IMG/VR virus record: IMGVR_UViG_3300049218_000083
Location: 1-64,000 of that record
Source: a virus
Direction: 5' to 3' (one strand)
DNA: 64,000 nt
In this document: positions 18,898 through 33,373 of the stretch, in pieces
Layout: each line of letters starts with the position of its first letter
Numbering within the stretch: position 1 is the stretch's first letter
Notes under the pieces: model-generated
Database searches by the model: none
Told to the model about the DNA's origin: nothing
The model's input: only the letters and a program-made list of their open reading frames with translations
Made by a program: the position numbers and the translations under genes

Positions 18898-19066
18898 AAA
18901 GTCCCTTCATGTCGTGAATGCCGCGACTGCGTAGCCAACTGCGTGCCTCGTTGATCTTGCTGTCGAACTGCCGTGGCTGCTCGACGGTTTTGATGATCTG
19001 TCCCTTGACAGTCTTCGTCTCTTCATCCAATTGCGCTTGGTCCACCACTTTGAGAAATCGTATCAT
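18872..19066 (-). CDS. Hypothetical protein, 64 aa
   Basis: Small basic protein, with a KINEARSWLRSRGIHD segment near the end. Overlaps the next gene by 26 nt and the previous by 4 nt. Not recognised. Confidence 0.5.
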   Translation of the reverse strand: MIRFLKVVDQAQLDEETKTVKGQIIKTVEQPRQFDSKINEARSWLRSRGIHDMKGLYGAAAANN

Positions 19067-19302
19067 GATGCTAATGCCTCCTGGATTTGCCTTTCGGATT
19101 GACGATGAAGAACGTAGGCACGACGCAGCGACTCGACATCGAATGTCGCAACCTCATAAGCCACCTTGGTATGAACCTCAGTCGGCTTGCGCCCACAATG
19201 CGTGAACCGTTCAACCGTCGCGAACCTTGCCGTGTTGGCAGCAATAAACGCATACCAGCGGTTCAATTCATCTCGATTGCCCATTCTCACTTTCTCCACC
19301 AT
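19063..19302 (-). CDS. Hypothetical protein, 79 aa
   Basis: First gene behind the CGATAACT promoter at 19319-19362, with a strong GCGGAGG ribosome site. Helical, with RWYAFIAANTARFATV and a C-terminal RQSERQIQEALAS. Not recognised. Confidence 0.6.
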   Translation of the reverse strand: MVEKVRMGNRDELNRWYAFIAANTARFATVERFTHCGRKPTEVHTKVAYEVATFDVESLRRAYVLHRQSERQIQEALAS

Positions 19303-19318
19303 TTATTTAACCTCCGCA

Positions 19319-19362
19319 ATCATAGCTCGTCTTCGTAGAAATGTAACGATACGCAGTTATCG
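19319..19362 (-). promoter_or_regulatory. CGATAACT-type promoter
   Basis: On the minus strand CGATAACTGCGTATCG, then GTTACA (-35-like), 17 nt, TATGAT (-10). The upstream box starts 38 nt before the -10, as in three other sites. The box here is itself an inverted repeat (CGATA/TATCG). Followed by GCGGAGG and an ATG. Confidence 0.75.
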
Positions 19363-19533
19363 CCGACCGATACAAGGTATCTCAGATTCCGGAATAACCT
19401 GGTACGATCCTTTGTTCGAGGCAATGGCCACGGTGAATTTCTTCGGCGGCGAACCACAGAAGATACAGGTCCGGTATCCCAGCGCAACACGCGCCGGATC
19501 GATGATCTCTTCGCACTTGTCAGACTTACACAT
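19357..19533 (-). CDS. Small zinc-ribbon protein
   Basis: 58 aa from the ATG at 19533. Cys pairs at the start (CKSDKC) and in TCIFCGSP give a likely zinc site similar to DksA/TraR-like small phage proteins (pattern: CxxC, then PARxALGYxTC). It overlaps the upstream gene by 8 nt. The longer frame to 19614 lies inside that gene and is not used. Confidence 0.55.
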   Translation of the reverse strand: MCKSDKCEEIIDPARVALGYRTCIFCGSPPKKFTVAIASNKGSYQVIPESEIPCIGRR

Positions 19534-19693
19534 CACGTCCACAATAGAACACCTTTTTGAAAAGCCAAACGATGAAGTCCACGATGTGGCAGATAGCACA
19601 CTCGAGCATTTCAAGCATGAGCTTTAGGCCACAGCATGCCCAGGCTAGCAACACCAGCAGGATGATTTCTCCGCCAGCGCTGCCAGGAGTCAT
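19526..19693 (-). CDS. Small membrane protein, Cys-rich
   Basis: 55 aa from the ATG at 19693, coupled by ATGA to the upstream gene. One long hydrophobic segment (EIILLVLLAWACC) and four to five Cys residues (CCG, CAIC, YCG). Probably inserted in the membrane. Not recognised. Confidence 0.5.
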   Translation of the reverse strand: MTPGSAGGEIILLVLLAWACCGLKLMLEMLECAICHIVDFIVWLFKKVFYCGRDV

Positions 19694-19854
19694 TTTGACT
19701 GCCTTACGCAAACACCCTTTGACTCTAATTTTGTGTTTGCGATCACGGCCAATGCATCCTTACATTCCTGCTCGGATGAGAACCCAGGGACGACAGCGGT
19801 TGTTACACCGCCACCGTATGCGTAGAACAACGCGATGAGAACCCAGGTGTTCAT
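19690..19854 (-). CDS. Small secreted or membrane protein, 54 aa
   Basis: Found by reading the gap: an ATG overlapping the upstream stop (ATGA) and a stop overlapping the next ATG (ATGA). N-terminus MNTWVLIALFYAYGGGV looks like a signal peptide or TM helix; two Cys (EC, VC) in the rest could form a disulphide. Double coupling supports it being real. Confidence 0.6.
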   Translation of the reverse strand: MNTWVLIALFYAYGGGVTTAVVPGFSSEQECKDALAVIANTKLESKGVCVRQSK

Positions 19855-20045
19855 ACTCGAATGCCCTTGCGACCAAGGTTTTCGATGTCGGCGGCAACGA
19901 CTGTTGCCTTGGCTGCTAGAGCCTTCTCATCGAGACCCTGATAAATGCCAGCCTTCTTTGTGATGGCTCGCTGATCGTTCAGACGACGGCCAAGAGCACC
20001 AGTGCGTCGCTTGGAAATTCGACTCACGCTGTTACGCATGCCCAT
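19851..20045 (-). CDS. Basic hypothetical protein, 64 aa
   Basis: Strongly basic N-terminus (RISKRRTGALGRRL), then Ala/Lys-rich helix. Start overlaps the upstream stop. Could bind nucleic acid; no family recognised. Confidence 0.5.
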   Translation of the reverse strand: MGMRNSVSRISKRRTGALGRRLNDQRAITKKAGIYQGLDEKALAAKATVVAADIENLGRKGIRV

Positions 20046-20305
20046 TAGTGAACCCTCTGCATGACGATCATCTTGTGACCGACCTGCTTGGAAGTGAGGA
20101 CGAAGGTCAGGATGCTGGGACCATCGATGCGCTCCTGGACCTGGAATCGGACAGCTGCACCGTTGCGAAGCTGCAGATCCAAACCAAACTCGTCACCGAA
20201 GTCCTCGAAGATGGCTGACGGACCACGAACAGTCGCCAAGTCATCGGCATTGGCCATCAGAGTCTTGTTGGTGGGATCGATAGTAAACATGGTTGCTGGG
20301 AACAT
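20045..20305 (-). CDS. Hypothetical protein, 86 aa
   Basis: Preceded by GGAGAGAG. Mixed acidic and beta-rich sequence, with VQERIDGPSILTFVLTS near the end. Not recognised. Confidence 0.55.
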   Translation of the reverse strand: MFPATMFTIDPTNKTLMANADDLATVRGPSAIFEDFGDEFGLDLQLRNGAAVRFQVQERIDGPSILTFVLTSKQVGHKMIVMQRVH

Positions 20306-20319
20306 TTCACTCTCTCCAT

Positions 20320-20586
20320 TTATGTAATCGTCACAGTAACTGTACGCTTCTTTTCCAAAGAAAGCTTCACTTTTTCTACGATCTTAATGTTGAAGTCAAT
20401 GTGTGATTCAACACTACCATAATGCCTTTCGATCCCGAGTTCTTCTGCGAGTTGCTTGTTGACTTCAATCAAGTAGCAGAACAACCGCGCTGATAGAATT
20501 CGTCCAGCTTCCGCACGCTCTTTGGCAATCTTGAGTGCTTCAGTAAGATCCGAAATCTGGATGTCTTTCTTGGTTGGCTTAGCCAT
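20320..20586 (-). CDS. Hypothetical helical protein, 88 aa
   Basis: Helical, with TEALKIAKERAEAGRI and two Glu/Lys-rich segments. The start overlaps the previous small gene. Not recognised. Confidence 0.55.
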   Translation of the reverse strand: MAKPTKKDIQISDLTEALKIAKERAEAGRILSARLFCYLIEVNKQLAEELGIERHYGSVESHIDFNIKIVEKVKLSLEKKRTVTVTIT

Positions 20587-20755
20587 AACGCTTTTCCTTG
20601 TAGAGATCCGCTTCGATAGCGTCTCGTCGTGCGCGAAGTTCCTGAATCTCGTCGCGCATAATACGAGTCGGACGAAGGAAGTACTCCTTCAGGCAAATGT
20701 TGATGGTGTAATTGATCTCAGCCAACTCCCAACGGAGCTCGGTAAGCTTGTCCAT
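20579..20755 (-). CDS. Small coiled-coil protein, 58 aa
   Basis: Starts MDKLTELRWELAEINYTINI after TAGGAGAG. A two-helix coiled-coil with basic second helix (RARRDAIEADLYKEKRYG). Overlaps the next start by 8 nt. Not recognised. Confidence 0.55.
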   Translation of the reverse strand: MDKLTELRWELAEINYTINICLKEYFLRPTRIMRDEIQELRARRDAIEADLYKEKRYG

Positions 20756-20765
20756 CGAATCTCTC

Positions 20766-20978
20766 CTAAAGTAATCGGGGATCTACAGGCCACTGCGCGC
20801 TAGCTTTGATCGCTTCTTGGAAGTTGGCTATGGCCTCCTCAACTTCGCGCTCAGTACCACCAGGCACTCCGTTCCGCCATGGGCGGATAGTAGTGATACC
20901 ATCTTCGACGCAGACTCGCTCAGACGTTTTGAACGGAATGTGGGTCTTTCCACGTTCAGAGAACACCATGAGTTTCAT
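20766..20978 (-). CDS. Hypothetical protein, 70 aa
   Basis: Start chosen at the ATG overlapping the stop of the upstream membrane gene (ATGA). Sequence MKLMVFSERGKTHIPF, then a central TTIRPWRNGVPG and an acidic helix. The longer frame to 21200 is a shadow of the upstream gene. Confidence 0.55.
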   Translation of the reverse strand: MKLMVFSERGKTHIPFKTSERVCVEDGITTIRPWRNGVPGGTEREVEEAIANFQEAIKASAQWPVDPRLL

Positions 20979-21205
20979 TCTACCGTCTCCCGTATGTAGT
21001 GCTTCTTGATGAAGCCAATCACAAACATCGCCAGATGACTGAAGCCGAGGCTGATCAAACCAACTATTCGGCCAGGGATACACAGAATCACTGAGATGCA
21101 CATCATAACAAAAGCGCAAATGATGAACGTGATCATAAGCGCCAGCGCGACCAGCGCACCAAACCAAAAGAAGAAACTGGCTAGAAAGCCAAGTGCCCAT
21201 ATCAT
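20975..21205 (-). CDS. Membrane protein, two long TM helices
   Basis: 76 aa, almost wholly hydrophobic (residues 2-65), ending in a short charged tail. Overlaps the neighbours by 4 nt on each side. Unknown role in the inner membrane. Confidence 0.6.
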   Translation of the reverse strand: MIWALGFLASFFFWFGALVALALMITFIICAFVMMCISVILCIPGRIVGLISLGFSHLAMFVIGFIKKHYIRETVE

Positions 21206-21636
21206 ATAAGTTCCCTCAGTTCCAGATACATGGAATGATATTTCGCCAAACGCTTCATTTCCTTGGGCCCAACGTCCTTCAGGCGGCGAATGTCGCTGTT
21301 GTGGCGTAGGTCAGCCAACTTGACACGGATCGCGTCCTTGTTGCCGCGAAGCTGCATCATGTAGACTTCCTGAGAAAAATTCTCCTTGACCTTGCTCATG
21401 GCAAGAACGACGCGATCGGTAAAGCCCATGTCAAGGAGTGTCTGGGCTGTCACATCTGTGTCTTCAATCAGATCGTGACCGAGCGCGATGCACTGCAACT
21501 CTTCGTCGTCGGACTTGGTGTAGTACATGACTTTCAAGCAGTGAAGGATGTACGGATGTCCACCCTTGTCGAATACGCCTGCGAACTTGTTGGTTGCTAG
21601 AACAAGCATCTTGTCTAGCATCTCACCCTTCTTCAT
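21202..21636 (-). CDS. HD-domain (p)ppGpp hydrolase-like protein
   Basis: 144 aa. It carries the HD-domain signature of RelA/SpoT-type hydrolases: GHPYILHCLKVM (about 26-37), GHDLIEDTDVT with the HD pair at 54-55 and ED at 58-59, and KLADLRHNSD (106-115). Length and the single domain match small alarmone hydrolases (MESH1/SAH type), with no synthetase domain. Probably removes (p)ppGpp or related modified nucleotides in the infected cell, to relieve starvation control or counter toxic alarmone-type defence enzymes. Coupled to both neighbours by overlapping codons. Confidence 0.8.
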   Translation of the reverse strand: MKKGEMLDKMLVLATNKFAGVFDKGGHPYILHCLKVMYYTKSDDEELQCIALGHDLIEDTDVTAQTLLDMGFTDRVVLAMSKVKENFSQEVYMMQLRGNKDAIRVKLADLRHNSDIRRLKDVGPKEMKRLAKYHSMYLELRELI

Positions 21637-21845
21637 ACAGCGTTGATCCTTTTGGTTACACGAGCAGCTTCGTATTCCATCAGTTGTTTGACGACGATTG
21701 CTACGATGTCTGGTTTGTACGCATAGAGCGCAAGGTATTGCTGGACACTGCGACCACTCGTCATACGAGCAAAGTCAGCGGCACGCTCCGGAGTTTCGTT
21801 CACCCAGTCATTAAGACGAATCTGGGCTTGTTCGAAGTAGTTCAT
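21633..21845 (-). CDS. Hypothetical protein, 70 aa
   Basis: Helical, with a Tyr-rich middle (QQYLALYAYKPDIVAIVVK). It lies upstream of the HD protein in the same unit. A possible promoter (TTTCTTA ... TAGAAT) lies directly before it. Not recognised. Confidence 0.55.
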   Translation of the reverse strand: MNYFEQAQIRLNDWVNETPERAADFARMTSGRSVQQYLALYAYKPDIVAIVVKQLMEYEAARVTKRINAV

Positions 21846-21851
21846 GCCGCA

Positions 21852-21895
21852 ATTCTACTCGGTTGCTTAAGAAAGTAAAGACCTAGTATCCATCG
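21852..21895 (-). promoter_or_regulatory. Weak CGATAACT-type promoter
   Basis: On the minus strand a CGATGGAT box, CTTTCTTAAGC and a TAGAAT hexamer in the 38-nt arrangement of the stronger sites. The -10 is only 6 nt before the ATG, so the message would be leaderless. The upstream box lies in the end of the nucleotidyltransferase-like gene. Confidence 0.35.
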
Positions 21896-22731
21896 AACGC
21901 ATCACGCTCTTTCATAATGTGTTTCTTCAACTTGATCTCATGTTCAAAGCAATTCGGGCAAAGATTTCCACCCTTGTAGAGAGGCAAATGATGGTAGGTG
22001 TTACCGCAACGCTCGCAGTCAGAAGTTTGAATCGTCGTCTTATCAATTCGATCATCTTTGTCGAACTCGCCGTTGTATGCCATCCACTTGGAGTACTCTT
22101 CGCCTTTCAACTCGAAAGTGTTTGGATCAACAGTAACATTCTTGCGATTTCTGTGAACATAGCCGTTGACTCCAATGTCATACCGAACTTGTTCAGCGCA
22201 GTTTTTGCAATGGTGGGTATGATCTTTGGTTTGATACACTTCATCGTTCTCAAGAATCCTATTCTGACAACGTTCATCTTCGGTCAGATGAATCCACTCT
22301 CCATTCTTATCCTCTCGACGCTCTTTTCCACATGCTGGACACTCTCGACCTTCTGGATATTGATTATCCAGACATTGACCATCTTTGTCGATAGTCTGTT
22401 GTTCAGGGAAGAAGAGGTCGATAGGCTTGTCCAGATAGGACGCCTTTACAACCCAGCCGTGACGTTTGATGATCTCGATGCCGATAGTTGGTAGAGCCTC
22501 AAGTAATCCCTTCTCATCGATCGCAGGCGACTGTCTAATTCGGTAGAATAGGAAGTCCGCGTCTTTACGCTTTCCCTCCTTGTACAAGCAGCCACCTGTG
22601 AATGCTACGTGGCAACCAAACTCTGGGCAGATAGCCTCGATGGCTTTGGCCAGTTCGATTGCGTCTTCCCGCTCCCAAGGATGTTCCTTGTCCTTGATGA
22701 GCAATTCTTCCAGAGCACTAAGCGACGGCAT
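21883..22731 (-). CDS. Nucleotidyltransferase-fold protein with zinc ribbons
   Basis: 282 aa from the ATG at 22731, which overlaps the upstream zinc-ribbon gene. The first half has AFTGGCLYKEGKRKDADFLFY, the GG...DxD pattern of pol-beta-type nucleotidyltransferases. The second half contains three Cys-pair groups (ECPACGKE, HCKNCAEQ, CERCGNTYHH with CPNCFEH), probably zinc ribbons. Could modify a nucleic acid or protein; the substrate is unknown. The longer frame to 22824 is rejected because it reads through the small gene. Confidence 0.55.
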   Translation of the reverse strand: MPSLSALEELLIKDKEHPWEREDAIELAKAIEAICPEFGCHVAFTGGCLYKEGKRKDADFLFYRIRQSPAIDEKGLLEALPTIGIEIIKRHGWVVKASYLDKPIDLFFPEQQTIDKDGQCLDNQYPEGRECPACGKERREDKNGEWIHLTEDERCQNRILENDEVYQTKDHTHHCKNCAEQVRYDIGVNGYVHRNRKNVTVDPNTFELKGEEYSKWMAYNGEFDKDDRIDKTTIQTSDCERCGNTYHHLPLYKGGNLCPNCFEHEIKLKKHIMKERDAFDGY

Positions 22732-22897
22732 CTTCGCCTCTATACCATGTCTGACATGAATTACATTCGAAGAGTTCCGGATCATCCTTATCCGGCTTGT
22801 GAAACACGTTGCAACCACACTCACATCTGAATGTCACACCGTTGACTTTCGGCATGAACTGATGGAGCGTGCCATCTTCATGTAATAAAGGTTCCAT
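22718..22897 (-). CDS. Zinc-ribbon protein, 59 aa
   Basis: Two Cys pairs, FRCECGC and FECNSCQTWY, form a standard zinc ribbon. The stop overlaps the start of the nucleotidyltransferase-like gene, so the two are translationally coupled. Confidence 0.65.
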   Translation of the reverse strand: MEPLLHEDGTLHQFMPKVNGVTFRCECGCNVFHKPDKDDPELFECNSCQTWYRGEDAVA

Positions 22898-22898
22898 G

Positions 22899-23081
22899 TT
22901 ACATCAGGTGTAGAATAATGCCGGCGAATATTGCGCAGACAATCAACCAAACCAGACCCAGCAAACCGATACCAACGCAGTTGTCGCTGTCAAGTTTGTA
23001 GTGGGCTGGAAGCAGCGTTGCACAAGCCAAGCCAAAACCACCAGCCAAGAGAAGAATCAAAACAAATATTAAGTGATCCAT
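22899..23081 (-). CDS. Small membrane protein, 60 aa
   Basis: Two hydrophobic helices (residues 4-25 and 38-58) around a short charged loop (HYKLDSDN). Overlaps the previous gene by 13 nt. Not recognised. Confidence 0.6.
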   Translation of the reverse strand: MDHLIFVLILLLAGGFGLACATLLPAHYKLDSDNCVGIGLLGLVWLIVCAIFAGIILHLM

Positions 23082-23329
23082 GATTTCCTGATTTCCCGCA
23101 TCTTTAGAGCCAATTGCTTGCGGTCAATAAGGACCGCACCATTTCGTATAGCTTCATCACGCTTGGTCAGCGAAACATCATAGTGTGGGAAGGATGATGG
23201 TTGGAACCAGGCACGCTTCAAACCGATCAGGTCAGCCATTGCATGTAGCTCGACAAGCGTATCGGCTATCATGTGACACATGATCAGGCGTCGGTACGGT
23301 GCCCGCATATCATCTACGTAAACACTCAT
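23069..23329 (-). CDS. DUF4031-type protein
   Basis: 86 aa. Opens MSVYVDDMRAPYRRLIMCHMIADT and contains ELHAMADLIGL and HYDVSLTKRDEAI, the conserved pattern of the DUF4031 family often found in phages and bacteria. The biochemical role of the family is not known to me. Probably a full-length copy. Confidence 0.75.
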   Translation of the reverse strand: MSVYVDDMRAPYRRLIMCHMIADTLVELHAMADLIGLKRAWFQPSSFPHYDVSLTKRDEAIRNGAVLIDRKQLALKMREIRKSWIT

Positions 23330-23420
23330 GACAAATTATAACCTAAGATGGACTCAAAGGGTGAGCCTCGTTGTCGAAGCCCACCGATTCAGCCTTACTT
23401 CTGACCGACTACTGGAGCAT

Positions 23421-23582
23421 TCAAGAACGGGATCGGAGCGGCATCGCGAAATACATCAATTTGTCATCAATCTTCCGCTTGCAATATTTGCCATAGTACA
23501 GCTTGATGCCCAAAGGTAACAGAACGAACAGGTCGAGTAAGATGCAAACGGAAACAACAATCATCGGCCACGTGTGAATCAT
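23421..23582 (-). CDS. Small membrane protein, 53 aa
   Basis: Starts at an ATG overlapping the upstream stop (ATGA). One hydrophobic helix (ILLDLFVLLPLGI) then a basic tail (KYCKRKIDDK). Too short for most gene finders, but the coupling supports it. Confidence 0.5.
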   Translation of the reverse strand: MIHTWPMIVVSVCILLDLFVLLPLGIKLYYGKYCKRKIDDKLMYFAMPLRSRS

Positions 23583-24064
23583 TGTACGCAGCTCCTGGAG
23601 TGGTCCAGATCTATACCGATCCTAGCGTTGTTTTCGACGGTGTAGATCTTGTACGACAGCGCGCTGTACTGCCATACACGCTGCACAACCATGTAGTCAG
23701 GGTTTTCGACAACGAGGCTGTCAATTCCCTTGCTCACCAGGTAATGACCGGCAGCAAAGAGGCTCATTCCGATATAGACCTGGCGAGTTGTTGGATGGTT
23801 GCTGATCATTGACAACTGGCCGATTTCTTCGAAGCATGCACCGTTCTTTGCGATCTGCAAAGTCTGCATCGTGTCGACGACGTTCAGCAACTGCCAGACG
23901 ATTTCCGCAGCAGTCGTTTCACGGTTGGCGAAGCCAACATAAAAGTGCGTGCGGTAAACTTTTGGAGAGTCAGTCCCGTCAATGTCATCAGCTTTCGCTA
24001 TTGAGAAGGTTGACAAGACGAGCAGGAGCGATGTTAGCGCTCCGCCCAGGAAATTGGTCTTCAT
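23579..24064 (-). CDS. Exported protein with signal peptide
   Basis: 161 aa. Residues 1-25 form a clear Sec signal (basic KTN, hydrophobic ALTSLLLVLSTF, then ending AKA). The mature part has three Cys, aromatic segments and helical regions. Probably periplasmic or outer-membrane facing. No enzyme motif seen. A role such as superinfection control is possible but not shown. Confidence 0.65.
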   Translation of the reverse strand: MKTNFLGGALTSLLLVLSTFSIAKADDIDGTDSPKVYRTHFYVGFANRETTAAEIVWQLLNVVDTMQTLQIAKNGACFEEIGQLSMISNHPTTRQVYIGMSLFAAGHYLVSKGIDSLVVENPDYMVVQRVWQYSALSYKIYTVENNARIGIDLDHSRSCVQ

Positions 24065-24066
24065 GG

Positions 24067-24567
24067 TTAATAGTCCTCCGGATTGGGAAACATCGCGTTG
24101 AGCTCGTTCATCTCAGCAAGCAGCGGTTGCCATTTAGCGTTGAACGCAACCTTGGCAGCTTCGTACTCACGTTCGATCGTCAAGGCACGCTCTTGGGCTT
24201 CATCTCGAAGAGAATCGAGACGATCACGAAGCGTTTCAGCGACAAGCGTGCCCTCGAGAATTGGTCCATTGGGTTGGGCAACAACGCTGTGGCGCGGATT
24301 CCGCAGCTTGTAAAACGCATTCCCAAGAGTTACAAGAGGCGGCACTTGGTGGAACTTAGAGCTCGCCAGATAGGCCAGAGCATTTCCAATTTCGTTGGAC
24401 GTTCCCCACTTCCTCTCGAGCGCACTGTGTACTTCGCCAATCGAATGGGGACGACCATCATCCCAAATCGTCAGCTTCATAATCACCTTGGTTCTGCCTT
24501 GCTTACGCACGATGTCCTTGGGAGCACCCATTGCACCTGTACGCTCGCCGATGGTCGCATTCATCAT
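24067..24567 (-). CDS. Winged-helix-like coiled-coil protein
   Basis: 166 aa. The first half (DGRPHSIGEVHSALERKWG then EIGNALAYLASSK) resembles a winged-helix DNA-binding domain; the second half is a Glu/Arg-rich coiled coil. Could be a phage transcription regulator. No family named. Coupled to the next gene. Confidence 0.5.
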   Translation of the reverse strand: MMNATIGERTGAMGAPKDIVRKQGRTKVIMKLTIWDDGRPHSIGEVHSALERKWGTSNEIGNALAYLASSKFHQVPPLVTLGNAFYKLRNPRHSVVAQPNGPILEGTLVAETLRDRLDSLRDEAQERALTIEREYEAAKVAFNAKWQPLLAEMNELNAMFPNPEDY

Positions 24568-24776
24568 TGTGTCACCTCTTGTAGATCAGATCTGGGAATG
24601 GTGAAGAACGCTTCACCAGTTGGACGTTCGGAGACACAGACGTATTCGACACCCTCGATGGCAGTGTCATCAGCGGCAACGCCATAGACGTCCTGGACAA
24701 TGTAGACGATGTCGCCTACCTGGGCATCGGGCCGAGCCGCATTTTCTACGTTCATCACTTTGTATCGTTGCGTCAT
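24564..24776 (-). CDS. Hypothetical protein, 70 aa
   Basis: ATG at 24776 chosen because CGAGGAG precedes it at good distance. SH3-like beta pattern (VGDIVYIVQDVYGV). Overlaps the next gene by 4 nt. Not recognised. Confidence 0.55.
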   Translation of the reverse strand: MTQRYKVMNVENAARPDAQVGDIVYIVQDVYGVAADDTAIEGVEYVCVSERPTGEAFFTIPRSDLQEVTQ

Positions 24777-24817
24777 AAATCTCCTCGTAAGCAAGTATGG
24801 CCGAGTGAACTTTAATT

Positions 24818-25282
24818 CTAAAGAAGTTTGTAGATGGGAATCTTTTTCCCGAACCGTTCTATGAAGAGGTCATCCTTGTTCTCCTGATAAAGGATGACTC
24901 CAACGCACTCTGGAGAGAAGTCCACACTGCTGCGGCAGCGGTCTTCTGTGTTGGAAACCCGATCGATCTTGTGTAAGATTTCTTCGACGGTGGAACCTGT
25001 CTCGATGAAGTCATCCAGGATCATGTACCTCTTGACGTCGGTATGGTAGTCACACTCAATGGACTGTCCATGGCTACGTTCAGTTCCTTTCCGGATGACG
25101 ATCAAAGGAATCCCGGTGATGTAACTCACCGGGAACCCAACGGAGTAGCCTGAGACACCACGCACGGCGATTGCATCGAAGGGCACCCGTCTACGGAGTG
25201 CCTCTATTTGCTTCGCTAGACTGTCTGCCTTGGTCCTGATATGATCAGGATTCAGGTTCAGGTACGCAGTGCCAAACCTCAT
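24818..25282 (-). CDS. Phosphoribosyltransferase-like protein
   Basis: 154 aa. The PRPP-binding motif MILDDFIETGST is at residues 87-98, with an upstream FDAIAVRGVSG strand and loop typical of type I phosphoribosyltransferases (adenine or other base). It may salvage a nucleobase or use PRPP in nucleotide or NAD metabolism during infection; the base specificity cannot be read. Start overlaps the upstream stop (ATGA). Confidence 0.72.
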   Translation of the reverse strand: MRFGTAYLNLNPDHIRTKADSLAKQIEALRRRVPFDAIAVRGVSGYSVGFPVSYITGIPLIVIRKGTERSHGQSIECDYHTDVKRYMILDDFIETGSTVEEILHKIDRVSNTEDRCRSSVDFSPECVGVILYQENKDDLFIERFGKKIPIYKLL

Positions 25283-25491
25283 TCGACCACCAATGCCTCA
25301 ACCTCTTTGAGATTGATGTTGTACGTGGCATTGGTTTTGGAACCAAACCTGAAGTTGTAGTTCGTGAGCGCAGTTTCCTCCCTCGTCACTTTCCATTCAA
25401 CGATGTTCGTCATGACAATACGGGAACCCGACTTCATGTAGAACGTTGCTTTGTAGTGCCTACGGAACAACTTGGCCAGTAAGTACAGCAC
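25279..25491 (-). CDS. Hypothetical protein, 70 aa, GTG start
   Basis: GTG at 25491 preceded by AAGGAG at 7 nt. Reads on from the end of the upstream gene in another frame. Beta-rich sequence with GSRIVMTNIVEWKVTREE and a basic N-terminus. Not recognised. Confidence 0.5.
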   Translation of the reverse strand: MLYLLAKLFRRHYKATFYMKSGSRIVMTNIVEWKVTREETALTNYNFRFGSKTNATYNINLKEVEALVVE

Positions 25492-25687
25492 TTGCTTTCT
25501 CCTTGTTTGCCTTCTTGCGGTACTTGACGACGTCTTCACCAACGCGCTCGTTGCTGACGTTGAAGATGTCAGCCACCATACACGAGGTGACCAATTCCGA
25601 CACCACCTTCGGATCCATGTTGCCTGGGTCTGCGCAACTGTCATTCTCCGCAATCCACTGAATCGCTGAACGATAACCTGCTCTCAT
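25460..25687 (-). CDS. Hypothetical protein, 75 aa
   Basis: Preceded by CAGGAGATTCAA. N-terminal MRAGYRSAIQWIAENDSC, then a helical acid/basic domain. Overlaps the GTG-started gene by 32 nt. Not recognised. Confidence 0.55.
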   Translation of the reverse strand: MRAGYRSAIQWIAENDSCADPGNMDPKVVSELVTSCMVADIFNVSNERVGEDVVKYRKKANKEKASAVLTGQVVP

Positions 25688-25699
25688 TTGAATCTCCTG

Positions 25700-26110
25700 T
25701 TACTGATACTCAGGACGGTGCCGAGACCGCCCAATCAACCAATGGCCGCTGGATGCGCGTGCCCACTGGACCTTCGACAGAGTGTTCCAAAACAACTGTT
25801 GGAACCGTTGACCGTGACCTTGTAGTTCGTTCCTCCAGCGACGCGTAGACGTCCAATAGTCGAGATAGTGTGCATACTCGTGAGCCAGCAGAATGATCCA
25901 CTCGTGGGAGGGTGTTCCCTTGACGATGTGCATCGTGATCATCCGTTTGGCCTGGTAGCACATTCCCCAGACTGCCTGGTGACCCTCGAACTTGGGCTCA
26001 TGCCAGATCACGTAGATGGTCGGAGCCTTGAGCCGGAGCCCACGCTTGCGAATCCATTCACGGCAGATCTGCTTCGCCAGCTGAGACCGTTGTTTTCGCA
26101 ACAGTTTCAA
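25700..26110 (-). CDS. SprT-like zincin, TTG start
   Basis: 136 aa. HEYAHYLD (residues 77-84) is a HExxH zinc motif, preceded by a beta-rich region and followed by a basic C-terminal part with HGxxFxxLFW, the layout of SprT-like/SprT-type metallopeptidase domains. A TTG start is used with GGAGG at proper distance. Could be a DNA-bound protease or an inactive relative. It overlaps the 28-aa gene upstream. Confidence 0.62.
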   Translation of the reverse strand: MKLLRKQRSQLAKQICREWIRKRGLRLKAPTIYVIWHEPKFEGHQAVWGMCYQAKRMITMHIVKGTPSHEWIILLAHEYAHYLDYWTSTRRWRNELQGHGQRFQQLFWNTLSKVQWARASSGHWLIGRSRHRPEYQ

Positions 26111-26193
26111 ATGAACCTCCGGTTCGCTGGGTCAATGACCGCCATCACGCACAGAGCGATGGCAAGAACGTTGATGAAGATTCCTACGTACAT
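26107..26193 (-). CDS. 28-aa membrane peptide
   Basis: ATG at 26193 behind a strong AAGGAGG. The peptide is one hydrophobic helix (GIFINVLAIALCVMAVI) with a short polar tail, and its stop lies against the next start. Likely a real small membrane protein or a translation-coupling leader. Confidence 0.5.
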   Translation of the reverse strand: MYVGIFINVLAIALCVMAVIDPANRRFI

Positions 26194-26203
26194 GATTTCC
26201 TCC

Positions 26204-26515
26204 TTAGTCGTTGAACACAGTCACCACCCAGCCGCGAAGCTGGGGAAAGGAAGCCAGCGTCTTGTCATTTGGCGCTAGCGTCCAGAACATGATGTCACCC
26301 TCGCGATCCTCGCGACCAACGATCACGAACTCAGCGACCTCGTTGGTTTTCTCGGACATTATGAAGAGGCCAACCGGACCACCTTCCATGATATCGAACG
26401 GCTGCTTATGCGTCGTCCGGGCACTCAGGTCCGAAGCTTCACAACTCAGGGTCTTGATCGACTTCGAGACCGTGAAGAGCTTCGAGAGGTGGACATTCTT
26501 TGTAGCGATTGGCAT
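26204..26515 (-). CDS. Hypothetical protein, 103 aa
   Basis: First gene after the CGATAACT-type promoter at 26549-26592, with GGAGAACTGAA before the ATG. Mixed beta protein with GGPVGLFIMSEKTNEV. Not recognised. Confidence 0.6.
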   Translation of the reverse strand: MPIATKNVHLSKLFTVSKSIKTLSCEASDLSARTTHKQPFDIMEGGPVGLFIMSEKTNEVAEFVIVGREDREGDIMFWTLAPNDKTLASFPQLRGWVVTVFND

Positions 26516-26548
26516 TTCAGTTCTCCGTTCAGTTTCTACCTAGGACCA

Positions 26549-26592
26549 ACTCTAAGCGGAGTCGCCGAGTGTAGAAAGATACGCAGTTATCG
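26549..26592 (-). promoter_or_regulatory. CGATAACT-type promoter
   Basis: On the minus strand CGATAACTGC, then TTTCTA (-35 position), 17 nt, TAGAGT (-10). Box to -10 distance is 38 nt. The leader (CCTAGGTAGAAACTGAACGGAG) is almost identical to that of the site at 30302. Confidence 0.8.
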
Positions 26593-26601
26593 TTTCGTCG
26601 A

Positions 26602-27429
26602 CTACTTCGTAACTTCCTGAGCCTTGATGGTTTCGCGCAGAGCGACCAGGCGCTCGATCTCAGCGACATCGGCAGCAGCGTCCGGGTACACGGCGAGCGT
26701 AGCTGCAGAGTGCTTTGCGCGCCAGTGGTTGAGCTGGTAGGGGATGTCCTGGTAGAGCTGGCGAGAGACTTCCGAGCGCTGCTCATAAGGAACCGCGAGC
26801 ACGCGCTCCAGGATCGCCTTGCGGACTTTCTCGAACGACCGACTCACTGCCTCCAGCGCGTCTTTCTTGGCGGACTTGGTCCGGAAGGTGCCTTCGATGT
26901 GACCAGTTTTGACATCGACCTTGGTGTTGGCTGGTTTCTCGACCTTGATCTTTTCGGCAGGGATCAGCGCAGTGCCGAACTTCGGCAACACGCGAGTGGT
27001 TAGCATCTCAGCGTGGTCACGATTCATGTCGCGGCGCATTTCGGCCGAGTGGACCATGCTGGCGCGAACCGACTTCTGCTTGTACTCCGGCTGCTCAGCG
27101 AACACGAAGGTGATCATCTTGTAGCCGTACCGATCAGCACCCTCTTTATCACGACCGACGTAAGTGTTTTCGCTGTACTTCTCGATCACGCACGTTTCAA
27201 GACGCTTGGCTTCGGCGTCGAACGTGGCCGCATTCTCGAGGCAGGACTTGATGATTTGGTTGGTCAGGGTGATTTCATGCTGGGCAGGCTTGCGGTCAGC
27301 GCCAGGGCAAACACCGTTGAAGAAGTTATGCTCGACCGTGTAGCCGTGCTTGGCTACGTTTTTGCTCTTGAGGTTGAAAGCCTGGGTCCGACCACAAGCT
27401 TGGCAGGTTCCATCATGAGTATGTCGCAT
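26602..27429 (-). CDS. Zinc-finger protein of unknown function, 275 aa
   Basis: Starts MRHTHDGTCQACGRTQAFNL with a CxxC pair and a later FNGVCPG, an N-terminal zinc-binding layout; a mixed helical domain follows, with a conserved-looking MITFVFAEQPEYKQKSVRASMV and a long C-terminal helix. Similar-looking proteins are frequent in large phages and plasmids, but no function is known to me. It stands as a unit of its own between two promoter regions. Confidence 0.55.
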   Translation of the reverse strand: MRHTHDGTCQACGRTQAFNLKSKNVAKHGYTVEHNFFNGVCPGADRKPAQHEITLTNQIIKSCLENAATFDAEAKRLETCVIEKYSENTYVGRDKEGADRYGYKMITFVFAEQPEYKQKSVRASMVHSAEMRRDMNRDHAEMLTTRVLPKFGTALIPAEKIKVEKPANTKVDVKTGHIEGTFRTKSAKKDALEAVSRSFEKVRKAILERVLAVPYEQRSEVSRQLYQDIPYQLNHWRAKHSAATLAVYPDAAADVAEIERLVALRETIKAQEVTK

Positions 27430-27455
27430 TTCATTTCCAAGTAAGTAACCGATAG

Positions 27456-27520
27456 AGCAACTCTACGCGGACTGCTTACGAAAGGTAGACGATTTTACAA
27501 TAACGTCAAAATAGTCGCCG
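27456..27520 (-). promoter_or_regulatory. Possible promoter with CGATA palindrome
   Basis: Minus-strand sequence with CTTTCGTAAGCAGTCCGCG and TAGAGT, as in the other CGATAACT-type sites, but the upstream box at the expected distance is degenerate. A near-palindrome ACGATAGGCAGTTATCGT lies further up (27521-27540). Confidence 0.4.
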
Positions 27521-27533
27521 AAACGATAACTGC

Positions 27534-27710
27534 CTATCGTTCTAAATCCAATTCTTTGTAGCTGAAGCCCATTTCTAGGTCAGGACAAGCATCAAGCTGA
27601 ACAACGATCACATCCCAGTCGATGAATTTGACGACTTTTCCAGCCATGTAGCGGAGTTCCGACCAGTCTGATATCACGCGCACTCGCGTGCCCGGAGTCT
27701 TTATGCCCAT
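27534..27710 (-). CDS. Hypothetical protein, 58 aa
   Basis: Reads MGIKTPGTRVRVISDWSELRYM, a small SH3-like beta protein, preceded by AGAGGTGAGAA. Its end runs into the palindrome region. Not recognised. Confidence 0.55.
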   Translation of the reverse strand: MGIKTPGTRVRVISDWSELRYMAGKVVKFIDWDVIVVQLDACPDLEMGFSYKELDLER

Positions 27711-27713
27711 TTC

Positions 27714-28103
27714 TCACCTCTTTAAGATGTGTGTTTCTTTCTGTAGTTTTCTAGCGTATCGTACCGTTGCCCACGTTCCGGATCGCAAGATTTCTTCATC
27801 CTGCTCTGGGGTGGCGATGAGAACATCACAGGCATCGACGATGTCGTGGTTGCGATCAAGATATGGCTTGGGTGTGTGAATATGATGAGCACCAGTACAG
27901 AACGCTCGCCGATAATCGTTGGTCGGCGGATGGATGTGGATTAGCAGGAACATCACGCGAGCTAGATTATGAGCCTGAGCATCAGCGCCGACACAATCTC
28001 CATGGTGAAACTCTGTTGCGTTCAACTCAACCAACTTTGTGCCCAGCTGCTGCATCTGATTGTCAGACATGCCGGCTGAAGTTCCAGTGAACCCAATGAT
28101 CAT
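27714..28103 (-). CDS. SLOG/DprA-like nucleotide-binding protein
   Basis: 129 aa. N-terminus MIIGFTGTSAGMS, then HHGDCVGADAQAHNLA and PYLDRNHDIVDACDVLIATP with SGTWATVRYARK: the complete pattern of a small Rossmann-like SLOG domain. SLOG proteins bind nucleotide-derived ligands and occur in antiphage signalling systems and phage counter-measures. Here it may bind or hide a nucleotide messenger; that is an inference. Good ribosome site AAGAGGCGATT. Confidence 0.72.
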   Translation of the reverse strand: MIIGFTGTSAGMSDNQMQQLGTKLVELNATEFHHGDCVGADAQAHNLARVMFLLIHIHPPTNDYRRAFCTGAHHIHTPKPYLDRNHDIVDACDVLIATPEQDEEILRSGTWATVRYARKLQKETHILKR

Positions 28104-28336
28104 AATCGCCTCTTCTTCCAGGTGTACGGTTGGCCGTTGGGAAGCAACCCATCTTTGACACCATCGACTCCGATTGAATGGTGGCTCGCAGTTGTGACAA
28201 AGAACATTCCTTGCTCACGCAACTGAGCTGCACGCGCAAGCAGCAGTCCGATCTGTTGTTCACCGTCAGGGAACTGCTCGACGTTTGGAGCCATGACTCC
28301 GTCAAGGCTTTCGCACCAGTACACAACCATTGTCAT
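28100..28336 (-). CDS. Hypothetical protein, 78 aa
   Basis: Start selected at the ATG overlapping the upstream stop (ATGA). Sequence has MVVYWCESLDGVMAPN and TTASHHSIGVDGVKDG, then the tail LPNGQPYTWKKRRL. Not recognised. The longer frame to 28519 is a shadow of the membrane gene. Confidence 0.55.
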   Translation of the reverse strand: MTMVVYWCESLDGVMAPNVEQFPDGEQQIGLLLARAAQLREQGMFFVTTASHHSIGVDGVKDGLLPNGQPYTWKKRRL

Positions 28337-28593
28337 TTCTTCAGTCTCAAATAAGCGATCGATCCAATCCAGAAGAAGTTGGCTGCCATGATTGCACAAC
28401 CGCCAGCGAATGAAAACCACTGATCCAGGTGTGGGTAGTAGAATAAATTCCAGATTCCCCATCCTGCGAAGTAAATCACACTGACCAAAGAAATGCCTCT
28501 CGCCTGACGAGATTGCCACAACGCTTTGGTGTGATTCAGGATGAATAATGAACCAAAGAACTCGAACAGTCCATTCACCAAATCAGGAATCAT
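28333..28593 (-). CDS. PQ-loop/SemiSWEET-like membrane protein
   Basis: 86 aa with three hydrophobic helices (about 8-20, 36-53 and 60-82) and a KALWQSRQARGISLVSVIYF segment like the PQ-loop region of SemiSWEET and related small transporters. Such proteins pair into transporters. Whether it carries a solute or only has the fold is unknown. Coupled to the neighbours by overlapping codons. Confidence 0.5.
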   Translation of the reverse strand: MIPDLVNGLFEFFGSLFILNHTKALWQSRQARGISLVSVIYFAGWGIWNLFYYPHLDQWFSFAGGCAIMAANFFWIGSIAYLRLKK

Positions 28594-28979
28594 ACTTGAG
28601 CCTTGGTGACACGAAATTTGTCGAACAGTTTTTCAGCAAACTGCCAAGCCAGACTTGAACGGCCACCTGAGCGGTCATCGCTGTTGTACTTGCCAAACGT
28701 GGCGGAGTCGAGATGGTGATACCACTCGTGGAATACAGCCTTCAGATGAGAGCGACTGTGAACCCAGATGATTCTACATCCATATTGTCCCAAGCAACCA
28801 ACCTCAGGCATTGCGGTGCTGACGACCGGACGGCTGACACCATACTCTTCCGAGAGGATGTCACAAATCTCCTGCGCCGTTCGTCGATCCACCTTGAAGT
28901 AATATCCCTTCCTGGTAGGAAAGAGATCAGCCAAGGCTTGCGGACAGCGAACGTCCCACTCTTTAGTCACTCGGAGCAT
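28590..28979 (-). CDS. Zincin-like protein with HEWYHHLD
   Basis: 129 aa. HEWYHH (residues 84-89) is a HExxH metal site; the surroundings (LKAVFHEWYHHLDSATFGKY) are like those of domesticated metallopeptidases in mobile elements. Two Cys lie near GCLGQYGCRI. No signal peptide. Second zincin in this block besides 25700-26110. Good ribosome site AAGGAAGTG. Confidence 0.6.
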   Translation of the reverse strand: MLRVTKEWDVRCPQALADLFPTRKGYYFKVDRRTAQEICDILSEEYGVSRPVVSTAMPEVGCLGQYGCRIIWVHSRSHLKAVFHEWYHHLDSATFGKYNSDDRSGGRSSLAWQFAEKLFDKFRVTKAQV

Positions 28980-29151
28980 TTGGGTGCACTTCCTTTATGA
29001 GAAAAATCAGTTTGTCATTCTCGGTGTAAAACGAGTCCACATGTCTATCATGAGCATTGCTTATGATCTGTCCAATTCGCCAATGCTTTCGGTGCGGATG
29101 GCGGAATAGTACCCAGGCCAGCCGAAGTATGTCCCAAATTGACGTGCGCAT
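28963..29151 (-). CDS. Hypothetical protein, 62 aa
   Basis: Basic and His-rich (WVLFRHPHRKHWRI). It overlaps the zincin-like gene start by 17 nt and follows directly after the next gene. Not recognised. Confidence 0.5.
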   Translation of the reverse strand: MRTSIWDILRLAWVLFRHPHRKHWRIGQIISNAHDRHVDSFYTENDKLIFLIKEVHPNAPSD

Positions 29152-29152
29152 C

Positions 29153-29287
29153 CTAGGTTACTTCCTCAATTGCCCAGTCAGATTCCGGTTCATCGATAGA
29201 AGTCGTCCAGCTTTTCCACGTGTACGGCTGACTCGTATCGTGAGGAATACCCTGTTCCCAACGTTCTGCGATGCTCAGTTCTTTCAT
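29153..29287 (-). CDS. Hypothetical protein, 44 aa
   Basis: Short acidic and Trp-rich protein: MKELSIAERWEQGIPHD. ATG overlaps the upstream stop (ATGA). Not recognised; supported by the coupling only. Confidence 0.45.
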   Translation of the reverse strand: MKELSIAERWEQGIPHDTSQPYTWKSWTTSIDEPESDWAIEEVT

Positions 29288-29448
29288 CCTGGGTCACTCT
29301 CGTCGAGAAGTTCTGACAACAGCCGCAGCGCTCTGGCCACGTCTCTGTCCCAGATGGATGCTGATCCTTCTTTGGCTCGCAACTCTGCAGTCGCAGCCAT
29401 CCACTCAACACGTTCCGGTGAGATCGGTTCTTTGATTGGTTCTTTCAT
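29284..29448 (-). CDS. Hypothetical helical protein, 54 aa
   Basis: Opens with a repeated MKEPIKEPISPERVEWM, followed by an amphipathic helix. Overlaps the next gene by 4 nt. Not recognised. Confidence 0.45.
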   Translation of the reverse strand: MKEPIKEPISPERVEWMAATAELRAKEGSASIWDRDVARALRLLSELLDESDPG

Positions 29449-29468
29449 CCAATAAGTCTACCTCGTAA

Positions 29469-29672
29469 TTACACGCCAGCGGCAAGTTTTCCTTTCGAGA
29501 AAATTCCTTTGTTGACTTTCTTGCGTATGTGGACAGCTTCCTTGTGATGATGCCACTCATCCCCATACGCATGATGAGAGTCATCGATGCAACCAAGTAT
29601 GATTTCGCCCAGACCATTCCTACACCTCCAGGGATTCGAGATTGCCGATCCGCACACAGGGCAGACCGGCAT
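29469..29672 (-). CDS. Zinc-binding protein, about 67 aa
   Basis: From the ATG at 29672: MPVCPVCGSAISNPWRC with CxxC and a later Cys, then DDSHHAYGDEWHHH and a basic tail. A GTG at 29708 overlapping the upstream stop is an alternative start. Likely binds zinc. Confidence 0.5.
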   Translation of the reverse strand: MPVCPVCGSAISNPWRCRNGLGEIILGCIDDSHHAYGDEWHHHKEAVHIRKKVNKGIFSKGKLAAGV

Positions 29673-29700
29673 CTCAAGCCGGATGAACGGTGAGAGGACG

Positions 29701-29943
29701 CTAGACACGGTGGCTCCGAATGGCCCCGAGGTTCAGCTTGACCAGGTCCCAGCAGTCAGCGACCTGGTCGATGTTCAGGCCAGCGGCCACGCCGGCATCG
29801 ACGAACTGCTTGTATCCAATGGAGTCGCGGACCTCGCGGAAGGACTTAGTCGTGTCCCACTCGCAGCCCACCATACACGCGTAGAGCGTCCAGCGATCCA
29901 CCAGCTTCTCAGCAACCGTCGAGACGCAGAAGAGCGCGCTCAT
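29701..29943 (-). CDS. Hypothetical protein, 80 aa
   Basis: Helical, with three Cys (LFCVS, LYACMVGC) and AADxxNIDQVADCWDL-like end. Coupled to both neighbours. Not recognised. Confidence 0.5.
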   Translation of the reverse strand: MSALFCVSTVAEKLVDRWTLYACMVGCEWDTTKSFREVRDSIGYKQFVDAGVAAGLNIDQVADCWDLVKLNLGAIRSHRV

Positions 29944-30269
29944 GACAACTTCTCCGTGACATCCATGAACCCGAAGGAGACAACGACGAAGGTCTTGTAG
30001 ACGTCATCCTTCACTTCGACGAACACGTCACCGACCGAGGAAGAACGCGAACCCTTCATACCATGGTCCTTGGAACCGTAGAAGGTGACGCCATCATTCT
30101 CCCACCAGCCTTTCTCGATGGAGTTGGTCAGGTGATACGCGGTGTCGAGGCTCTCGGTGTCGACCGTCGCAACATGGTGGTAGTCTTGCATCACGTTTGG
30201 GACGAAACCCTCACAAACCATGAAGGTCGGCTCATTAGCGTGGAAGACCATAACAACTGCTTTCTCCAT
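29940..30269 (-). CDS. Hypothetical protein, 109 aa
   Basis: First gene behind the CGATAACT-type promoter at 30302-30345; ATG at 30269 after CTGGAGATTGAA. Beta-rich with repeated Val/Asp segments (FVEVKDDVYKTFVVVSFGF). Not recognised. Longer upstream frame is excluded because it crosses the promoter. Confidence 0.6.
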   Translation of the reverse strand: MEKAVVMVFHANEPTFMVCEGFVPNVMQDYHHVATVDTESLDTAYHLTNSIEKGWWENDGVTFYGSKDHGMKGSRSSSVGDVFVEVKDDVYKTFVVVSFGFMDVTEKLS

Positions 30270-30301
30270 TTCAATCTCCAGTTCAGTTTCTACTAGGAAT
30301 G

Positions 30302-30345
30302 ACTCTACGCGCACTCGGCGAGTTACGAAAGAGCCGCAGTTATCG
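30302..30345 (-). promoter_or_regulatory. CGATAACT-type promoter
   Basis: On the minus strand CGATAACTGC, TTTCGT at the -35 position, 17 nt, TAGAGT. Box to -10 distance 38 nt. Leader shares CCTAGTAGAAACTGAACTGGAGA with the site at 26549. Confidence 0.8.
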
Positions 30346-30628
30346 TTTTGGGGAAGAAGTCGCCGAGGGTCGCACCCAGCGGTTTCACCTGAAGAGCTTC
30401 GGCACGACGCTCGGCATCGCGCTTGGCTTCGGCACGTTCCCATTCCAGTTCGCGCTCCGCGATAGAATTGAGCTCGTCGATGGCCTCCGCGAGAGCAGCC
30501 TCGTCGTTCCAGAAGTCCTGGTTGATGTTGCGGGGACGGTGGCCGTAGGCTTCCTTGTAGACGTCCGAGTAGACGCTCTGCAAGCCTTCCAGCTTGGTGA
30601 AGGTGAACTCGGTAGAAAGGTCGCTCAT
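30323..30628 (-). CDS. Small conserved-type phage protein, 101 aa
   Basis: MSDLSTEFTFTKLEGLQSVYSDVYKEAYGHRPR-like start (split here by role: a short acidic lead, then the GHRPR turn), followed by a long Glu/Arg coiled coil. I have the impression this N-terminal pattern occurs in many phages, but the function is unknown. Transcribed from the CGATAACT promoter at 30661-30704; its 3' end runs through the next promoter. Confidence 0.6.
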   Translation of the reverse strand: MSDLSTEFTFTKLEGLQSVYSDVYKEAYGHRPRNINQDFWNDEAALAEAIDELNSIAERELEWERAEAKRDAERRAEALQVKPLGATLGDFFPKTITAALS

Positions 30629-30660
30629 CTTAGGTCTCCTGTTGGTTCAACGTAGAACGA

Positions 30661-30704
30661 ACTCTACGCCCAACTCGGCGACTAAGAAAGAGCGCCAGTT
30701 ATCG
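30661..30704 (-). promoter_or_regulatory. CGATAACT-type promoter
   Basis: On the minus strand CGATAACTGG, TTTCTT at the -35 position, 17 nt, TAGAGT. Box to -10 distance 38 nt. Drives the 101-aa gene, whose leader carries AACAGGAGACC. Confidence 0.8.
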
Positions 30705-30706
30705 TT

Positions 30707-30910
30707 TCACCAAACCCAGTTGATATCGTAGAAAGTGCTGATCATGAAGAATAGGTTGACGGCAGCGACCACTTCAAAAAAGTAGCCAAGCCGAAAAGCC
30801 TGCTTCTGGAACCGCAATCTGGTCTGGGCACGCTTGATGCACACCCAGGCTGAATAGATGGTTCCAGTGATCCAAAGCAACCAGAGTAACGCATGAATAT
30901 GGACGATCAT
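30707..30910 (-). CDS. Small membrane protein, 67 aa
   Basis: ATG at 30910 preceded by GGAGGAGAGAAAGAA. Two hydrophobic helices (residues 4-22 and 42-60). Coupled to the upstream zinc-ribbon gene by ATGA. Not recognised. Confidence 0.55.
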   Translation of the reverse strand: MIVHIHALLWLLWITGTIYSAWVCIKRAQTRLRFQKQAFRLGYFFEVVAAVNLFFMISTFYDINWVW

Positions 30911-31744: not shown

Positions 31745-31895
31745 CTTGCGTGCTCGATCTTGAGCATGGCAATCTTGGGTTCATCAATGAGCACTCGTAA
31801 AGGACTTTCTTGAGTCAGTTGTCGAAATAGATAACTGGTACTCGTTTTCGACAGTCTTAATGGTTCTGACACGAGCAGGAGTCCCACGACAAACA

Positions 31896-32039: not shown

Positions 32040-32287
32040 ATGGATGAGTCAAATGTGCAAGCATTACGATACGTCTTTCGGCACTCAATCAGGTCGGGTA
32101 CAATGATCGTGTAGGATACGTTAAATTCTTTCTTCTCTGAAACGATAACTAGTACTCTATTATTCTCGAAAATACGATCGGTAGCGTACGGTAGCGTACT
32201 AACGCACGATCTAAATCCCGGTAGAATGTAATCGTGAAGTAAAGAGGTTTCTAACGGTTTCTACATTAACTTTCAAGGAGACATTAT
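32040..32287. promoter_or_regulatory. Divergent intergenic region
   Basis: No gene seen. On the plus strand CGATAACTAGTACTC (32137-32151) is followed after 39 nt by TAGCGT, an imperfect version of the 38-nt promoter arrangement, and later by CGGTAGAATG as another -10 candidate. The perfect 10-bp tandem GGTAGCGTAC occurs twice (32180-32199). An AAGGAG site precedes the plus-strand gene at 32288. Confidence 0.5.
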
Positions 32288-32629
32288 ATGAGCAGCAAAA
32301 AGCGTACATCTCATCGGACCATGGTCCGGAACATCTCGGTGACGAAGGTCACTGGTGCAACGGATGGTGGGAAGATCGTTGGGCGGCAGGCGTCCGGCAG
32401 TCGGTATCCGCGTTTCACGCCATTCGTGCAGGGACTCGACGATCTCAACTACCAGATCGGTGTTGGGTTCAAGGAGTCGGCGAAAGAAGGTCTCAAAGTG
32501 CTGACTGGCACGATGCGCACTTTCAAGGGCAGGTACAAGGATGCCAAGTCCATCGCTCGGGCCATGACCAACGTGGCACGCCAGGTCAATAAGGGTGTCA
32601 GTGGCGAATCGGCGAAAGTAGCAAGCTGA
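32288..32629 (+). CDS. Basic hypothetical protein, 113 aa
   Basis: First gene of the plus-strand block, after TTCAAGGAGACATTAT. Strongly basic start (SSKKRTSHRTMVRNI), then helical segments, Lys/Arg-rich and Gly-containing. Possibly nucleic-acid binding. Not recognised. Confidence 0.6.
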   Translation: MSSKKRTSHRTMVRNISVTKVTGATDGGKIVGRQASGSRYPRFTPFVQGLDDLNYQIGVGFKESAKEGLKVLTGTMRTFKGRYKDAKSIARAMTNVARQVNKGVSGESAKVAS

Positions 32630-32654
32630 CGAAGGTCAAACCCTGGGCCCACAT

Positions 32655-32685
32655 GAGGAGTGGTTGCTCATAACAACCACTCCTC
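32655..32685 (+). terminator. 12-bp hairpin between plus-strand genes
   Basis: GAGGAGTGGTTG, 7-nt loop, CAACCACTCCTC: a perfect 12-bp stem. No U-run follows, and the next gene ribosome site AAGGAGG starts 9 nt later, so it may be an RNA processing or stability element or an attenuator rather than a full terminator. Confidence 0.5.
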
Positions 32686-32707
32686 TACAACAATAAGGAG
32701 GCTGAAT

Positions 32708-32971
32708 GTGCCATTCTATCCTGATCCAGTTATGATCCCGATGACTCCACGGTGTGCTATTACGATTGCGAGATCGATCGAACGTAACACACCATTCTTT
32801 GATGATCCACGTGACCACGAGGATTATCTCCATGGGCTGGATCATGCGCTTGAGTGTCTTGAGCATATGACCAAGTTGCTGAAGTACATCCGAAGCAGCT
32901 TGCCATCTGTCGAGCCGAAACTCAAGGTGATGATCACTCGTCAATTACTGAAAGGATGTGACCTAGAATGA
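32708..32971 (+). CDS. Hypothetical protein, 87 aa, GTG start
   Basis: GTG at 32708 preceded by AAGGAGG at 6 nt. Mixed sequence with DDPRDHEDYLHGLDHALECLEHM. Not recognised. The longer GTG start at 32660 lies within the hairpin and is not chosen. Confidence 0.55.
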   Translation: MPFYPDPVMIPMTPRCAITIARSIERNTPFFDDPRDHEDYLHGLDHALECLEHMTKLLKYIRSSLPSVEPKLKVMITRQLLKGCDLE

Positions 32972-33183: not shown

Positions 33184-33198
33184 GAAACCAAAGGAAGG

Positions 33199-33372: not shown

Positions 33373-33373
33373 C

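Follow-up and report, generated by a model that had tools for sequence, protein, structure and literature searches.

A dyad at a fixed distance from the -10 hexamer marks a multi-copy family of candidate promoters in an uncultivated T4-like phage

Activators of the CRP type bind either near -42, where the site overlaps the -35 element (class II), or further upstream, near -62 or -71 (class I). The MotA box, TGCTTtA, is centred at -30, 12 ± 1 bp from the -10. Promoter Pm of phage Mu, on which Mor acts, has a -10 but no -35 and carries, centred at -43.5, a 16-bp element in which a 6-bp spacer separates 5-bp inverted repeats (PMC4390567). MotA of T4 acts at -30 (PMC2988021), and T4-like early promoters occur in many copies with a conserved region upstream (PMC2988021, PMC1524935). 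Many T4-like phages are devoid of MotA and AsiA. An overlap of early with late promoters was suggested to serve middle transcription in cyanomyoviruses and RB49 (PMC2984593).

The stretch of DNA analysed here (the window) comprised bases 1-64000 of a 166,743-base IMG/VR virus record, G000, which was assigned to an uncultivated T4-like myovirus on the basis of portal, scaffold, terminase and tail-sheath-stabilizer matches. Its TerL displayed no identity above ~43 % to any named phage in the collection. The record encodes a gp55-like late sigma (phrog_234, record positions 165744-166352) as well as CobS/CobT-like genes, and is probably near complete because its ends share a near-identical repeat of ~132 bases (1-132 and 166612-166743), with a short tandem array at its end. 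Genes were called with a simple script based on open reading frames and ribosome sites, so that the start of a gene, or its surroundings being labelled intergenic, is in some cases approximate. A tRNA-Thr-like gene was located on the plus strand at window 14623-14712, amid minus-strand structural genes, while L011:5116-5442 and L011:2978-3451, found among small early-type genes, corresponded to a PilZ-domain protein and a pyrimidine-dimer glycosylase. A relative, G003 (115.8 kb), displayed a TerL ~67 % identical to that of G000; contig L039 overlaps the end of G003, the shared 1,533 bp being 100 % identical.

On the minus strand of the window, CGATAACTG begins at 19362, 26592, 30345 and 30704 and is followed exactly 38 nt on, start to start, by a -10 hexamer, which is TATGAT at 19324-19319 and TAGAGT at 26554-26549, 30307-30302 and 30666-30661. 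All four sites proposed in an earlier sequence-only reading were thereby recovered with their spacing. The whole 166.7-kb record held six exact pairs of CGATAACT with TAGAGT or TATGAT, always 38 nt apart, two of them outside the window (107018 and 108255). Genome-wide enrichment of the pair, the lack of which would have counted against that reading, was borne out, since 200 Markov-shuffled genomes yielded one 38-nt pair in total. Distances from CGATAACT to common -10 hexamers, counted from 15 to 110 nt, were 38 (six times) and 79 (once), with nothing else. A full-length matrix derived from five like sites gave 60-80 bits for those sites, on which it had been trained, and 3.8 at best in six shuffles. 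CobS is preceded by a seventh box (159811), which was followed at 38 nt by just CAAACT. The exact composite patterns were found nowhere in IMG/VR beyond this phage, and comparison of a 61-nt promoter with known phages returned only chance-level matches of 21 nt (E = 5).

Five of the six sites share a composite structure consisting of GAAACGATAACTG (replaced by AAAACGATAACTG at 30345), a -35 region containing TCTTTC, a spacer with a TCGSCGA element, and TAGAGT. The spacer element of these TAGAGT sites reads ASTCGSCGAST and extends from about -28 to -18; neither this element nor the dyad of which the box is half (see below) had been mentioned in the earlier reading. Three such promoters (type A) occupy the minus strand of the window. 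The first, 26549-26596, combines a dyad at 26573-26596 (GAAACGATAACTGCGTATCTTTCT) with spacer element ACTCGGCGACT at 26560-26570 and precedes gene 26204-26515. The second, 30302-30349 (dyad 30326-30349, spacer element ACTCGCCGAGT at 30313-30323), precedes the likely gene 29940-30269, and the third, 30661-30708 (dyad 30685-30708, spacer element AGTCGCCGAGT at 30673-30683), precedes gene 30323-30628. A variant of type A at 19319-19366, also on the minus strand and ahead of gene 19063-19302, displays a dyad at 19343-19366 (CGATAACTGCGTATCG, 5-bp arms, 6-bp spacer) and fair hexamers of its own (GTTACA-N17-TATGAT) but lacks the spacer palindrome. The -35 region had been described as TTTC-type or GTTACA, which is correct: GTTACA was encountered at 19362 only and TCTTTC at the others, where TTTCTT, TTTCGT or TTTCTA stand 17 bp before the -10.

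Conservation among the five like sites was patchy. Invariant columns amounted to 12 out of 13 in the box, none of the next four, all six of TCTTTC, none of the following four and all six of the -10, with only one out of 16 in the upstream flank and three out of 31 downstream. Such a pattern would be expected of constraint rather than of plain duplication. The similarity between sites 26592 and 30345 extends through the leader to the ribosome-binding site, so that copying took place to some degree, and the whole set might be seen as one duplicated promoter cassette whose conservation reflects recent descent and not a bound factor. This is very improbable, since the 4-nt gaps and the flanks are unconserved, a 1-nt displacement of the spacer element at 30704 leaves the box still 38 nt from the -10, and related boxes occupy matching loci in G003.

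The box CGATAACTG constitutes the left half of an imperfect dyad of roughly 20 bp, AACGATA-N6-TATCGTT. Its arms are perfect over seven bases at 27520-27543 and over five at 19362; at most 38-nt sites, the right one is degenerate and usually reads TCTTT. With the -10 taken as -12 to -7, the dyad centre at the 38-nt sites falls at -42.5 and the dyad overlaps the -35 region; except at 19362, the sites have a weak core promoter (TTTCTT, TTTCGT or TTTCTA with TAGAGT). A dyad over the -35 region could block polymerase, and the fair hexamers of 19362 would suit a repressor operator that silences otherwise ordinary early sigma-70 promoters after the early phase. We consider such an operator unlikely, because repression requires neither a single exact spacing in six promoters nor dyads at a remove of 50-67 nt from the -10, as further promoters of the two phages have them upstream, and because the other five sites have poor hexamers.

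A symmetric dyad matrix recovered all sites and added others, among them 25667-25690, 105665-105688 and 162196-162219; it thereby revealed additional intergenic sites linked to promoters, the reverse orientation included. Distances from dyad centre to -10 in G000 were 30.5 nt (six times), 50.5, 58.5 and 66.5 nt, which are not integral helical turns apart. The three longer ones were found ahead of the CobT-like gene (50.5), gene 104890-105579 (58.5) and gene 26602-27429 (66.5), at promoters which, together with 21852, display the -30 core CTTTCGTAA-N9/10-TANANT. Three loci that had been listed as weaker versions of the 38-nt pair turned out to be organized otherwise. At 27456, a long-distance promoter (27460-27543, minus strand) displays the perfect dyad AACGATAGGCAGTTATCGTT within 27520-27543, the CTTTCGTAA box at 27484-27476 and TAGAGT at 27465-27460, to which the 66.5-nt distance applies. 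At 32137, the dyad GAAACGATAACTAGTACTCTATTA (32139-32162, plus strand) is located upstream of the plus-strand genes 32288-33691, with no -10 at 38 nt and TAGAAT 71.5 nt from its centre. The third, 21852-21875 (minus strand), is devoid of the box and consists of a -30-type core, CTTTCTTAA-N9-TAGAAT, which is shared with 27484 and with the promoter of CobT. No clear -10 accompanied a dyad-like site between called genes (AAATAGATAACTGGTACTCGTTTT, 31825-31848) or the weaker intergenic dyad at 25667-25690 (TGAACGATAACCTGCTCTCATTTG).

A related box, GGTACTAGTTAACGTTTC or its reverse, was encountered in eight places in G003, nearly all intergenic. From the centre of GGTACTAGTTAACGTTTC-type boxes to TATAAT, G003 and L039 mostly displayed 66.5 nt, with 65.5, 67.5, 49.5 and 59.5 nt once each, values that almost coincide with the longer distances of G000; the 30.5-nt arrangement was not seen in them, the -42 position being occupied by a different box, AAGTTAAAT. 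Dyads upstream of CobS, CobT, the ligase operon and the phrog_4046-like 104890 gene, representing four orthologous transcription units, were common to both lineages. The hypergeometric probability for orthology of the dyad loci was 2e-7 within 350 bp, a window picked post hoc, and 1e-3 within 250 bp. At nine promoters of G003, AAGTTAA preceded TATAAT by 34-36 nt. A further set of nine promoters in G003 (L032-L037), e.g. at minus 48172, 60432 and 18503, follows the pattern ACTCTTACA-N11-(G)TATAAT and takes the -30 position typical of MotA, although no MotA match was obtained in this phage by HMM. An ATG was located ~5-8 nt past the -10 at several promoters (G003 minus 568, 1468, 62132, 64717 and 89929; window 21845, ~7 nt past the -10 of 21852, gene 21633-21845), and such proximity suggests that these transcripts may be leaderless.

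More distant CobS/CobT phages carry AAGTKATTGATT, mostly with a -10 located 53 nt downstream. The pattern AAGT[TG]ATTGATT was observed upstream of CobS/CobT and of some other genes in L054, L055, L058, L059, L061-L063, L067-L070 and L073; among its 21 unique sites, a -10-like hexamer was found at 53 nt in 12 and at 54 nt in three. That AAGTKATTGATT may be the same element as the dyad box is only a lead, and the box was absent, by pattern, from most TerL, ligase and CobT relatives examined. The AAGTKATTGATT promoters of this wider group are AT-rich upstream, and T4 early promoters display UP, -35, TGn and -10 elements plus extra consensus (PMC2988021). Both features would accord with a box that is a polymerase-contact element (a UP-like alpha-CTD site with extended contacts) of ordinary early promoters, with no separate activator. 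This is, in our judgement, quite improbable: GAAACGATAACTG is a specific sequence rather than a run of A and T, it is encountered again in dyad form, in either orientation and with several spacings, and its core promoter is far from consensus, unlike those of T4 early promoters.

The MotA and AsiA HMMs (PF09114, PF09010) were silent in G000, G003 and G016, the latter two being partial records, while the T4 control was positive; likewise, the Mor family (PF08765) displayed no match in these three at E <= 1. Pfam or PHROGs scans of ~50 proteins revealed no convincing regulator besides the late sigma, and no helix-turn-helix was detected among conserved small proteins. The gene at 33374-33691 was rejected as the factor, its HTH_Tnp_1 match being weak (E 2e-4, below cut-off) and no G003 ortholog being found. 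The dyad pattern gave two matches in 84,980 GTDB genomes, approximately the chance level, and so pinpointed no host operator. It may be that the host supplies the factor, or that the phage encodes it in a divergent form.

With modest confidence, we favour the interpretation that these are pre-replicative (delayed-early/middle) promoters used by a sigma-70-type polymerase with a putative dimeric activator at the dyad. The host sigma-70-type RNA polymerase would read them with the aid of a dimeric DNA-binding protein. Bound to AACGATA-N6-TATCKTT near -42.5, the latter would overlap and replace the poor -35 element and recruit polymerase through contact with sigma region 4 and/or the alpha C-terminal domain; elsewhere, it would act from the same dyad further up (about -62, -71 and -78), as alpha-subunit activators do. 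The sequences themselves show the constant spacing, the dyad, its uneven conservation, the corresponding promoters of the relative and the lack of MotA/AsiA matches. Where and when transcription starts, that the dyad serves to activate and not to repress, and that a factor exists, be it of phage or host origin, are what we infer. Weighing against this interpretation are the degenerate right half of most 38-nt sites, the prevalence in the relative of 66.5 nt over the -42 position, distances that do not differ by whole helical turns, the fair hexamers of 19362 and the negative search for an activator among the ~50 proteins. Activation by a dimer was preferred because the fixed spacing, the weak hexamers and the dyad over the -35 region match Mu Pm with Mor; repressor, UP-like contact element and plain duplication are each less likely. 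Pre-replicative timing was deduced from the genes served and from a separate CTAAATA set at structural genes. This late-type set was found on the minus strand at window 6841, 12430, 17522, 47384, 48279 and 59541, 28-40 nt before genes that are mostly structural. The T4-like late -10 (TATAAATA/CTAAATA) was absent from the sites of the 38-nt family, which thus do not classify as late promoters.

A broader proposal, which we regard as doubtful, is that this lineage swapped the MotA/AsiA middle switch for an unrelated dimeric activator of an undescribed family, acting from about -42, -62, -71 and -78, and that the box changed between relatives while its genome positions were kept. Promoters with an overlapping activator are already known; in the open-access papers searched, no description was found of a multi-copy set of them in a T4-like phage that lacks MotA and has a relative with a changed box at the same genome positions. 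A defined promoter set with a fixed dyad, kept at orthologous genes in a relative, offers a concrete, testable alternative for middle transcription, and could serve as bait for finding the missing activator.

Compared with T4-like early promoters, the family likewise occurs in many copies before small early-type genes with a conserved region upstream, but its match to the host consensus is mostly poor where that of T4 early promoters is very good, and its upstream box is a dyad instead of an A-rich tract. Like T4 middle promoters, it combines a phage-specific box with a sigma-70-type -10 and no good -35, and the MotA-like position is taken by the CTTTCGTAA-like-N9/10-TANANT core in G000 and the ACTCTTACA set in G003. 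However, the 38-nt box spans about -50 to -35, its sequence is unlike TGCTTtA, no MotA or AsiA was found by HMM and no TGCTT occurred at -30 in the listed sites, which thus do not classify as MotA-dependent middle promoters. The sequence-only reading had regarded the box as activator-like and distinct from that of MotA; this was supported by the fixed distance in six sites, the weak core at five, the related boxes in G003 and the missing MotA/AsiA, and needs amending in that the box is half of a ~20-bp dyad near -42.5 that is used at other distances too. Like CRP sites, the dyad is found near -42 at some promoters and near -62 or -71 at others, although its sequence is not TGTGA-N6-TCACA and -78.5 lies outside the canonical positions of CRP. 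The constant spacing to the -10 at the 38-nt sites is what a class II promoter, with a factor bound at about -41.5, would be expected to display. Unlike Mu Pm, which exists in one copy, the arrangement is present here in many copies, most with a degenerate right arm, in a phage without PF08765 match. In layout, the level at which they were compared, the two resemble each other in part: CGATA-N6-TATCG is perfect at 19362 and 27520-27543, and its centre near -42.5 at the 38-nt sites would fit the Mor/C position if the -10 is -12 to -7. The "new promoter class" announced earlier is accordingly retained as a family with fixed box spacing, and would best be described as a lineage-specific use of a known arrangement, with an activator over the -35 region as Mor at Mu Pm.
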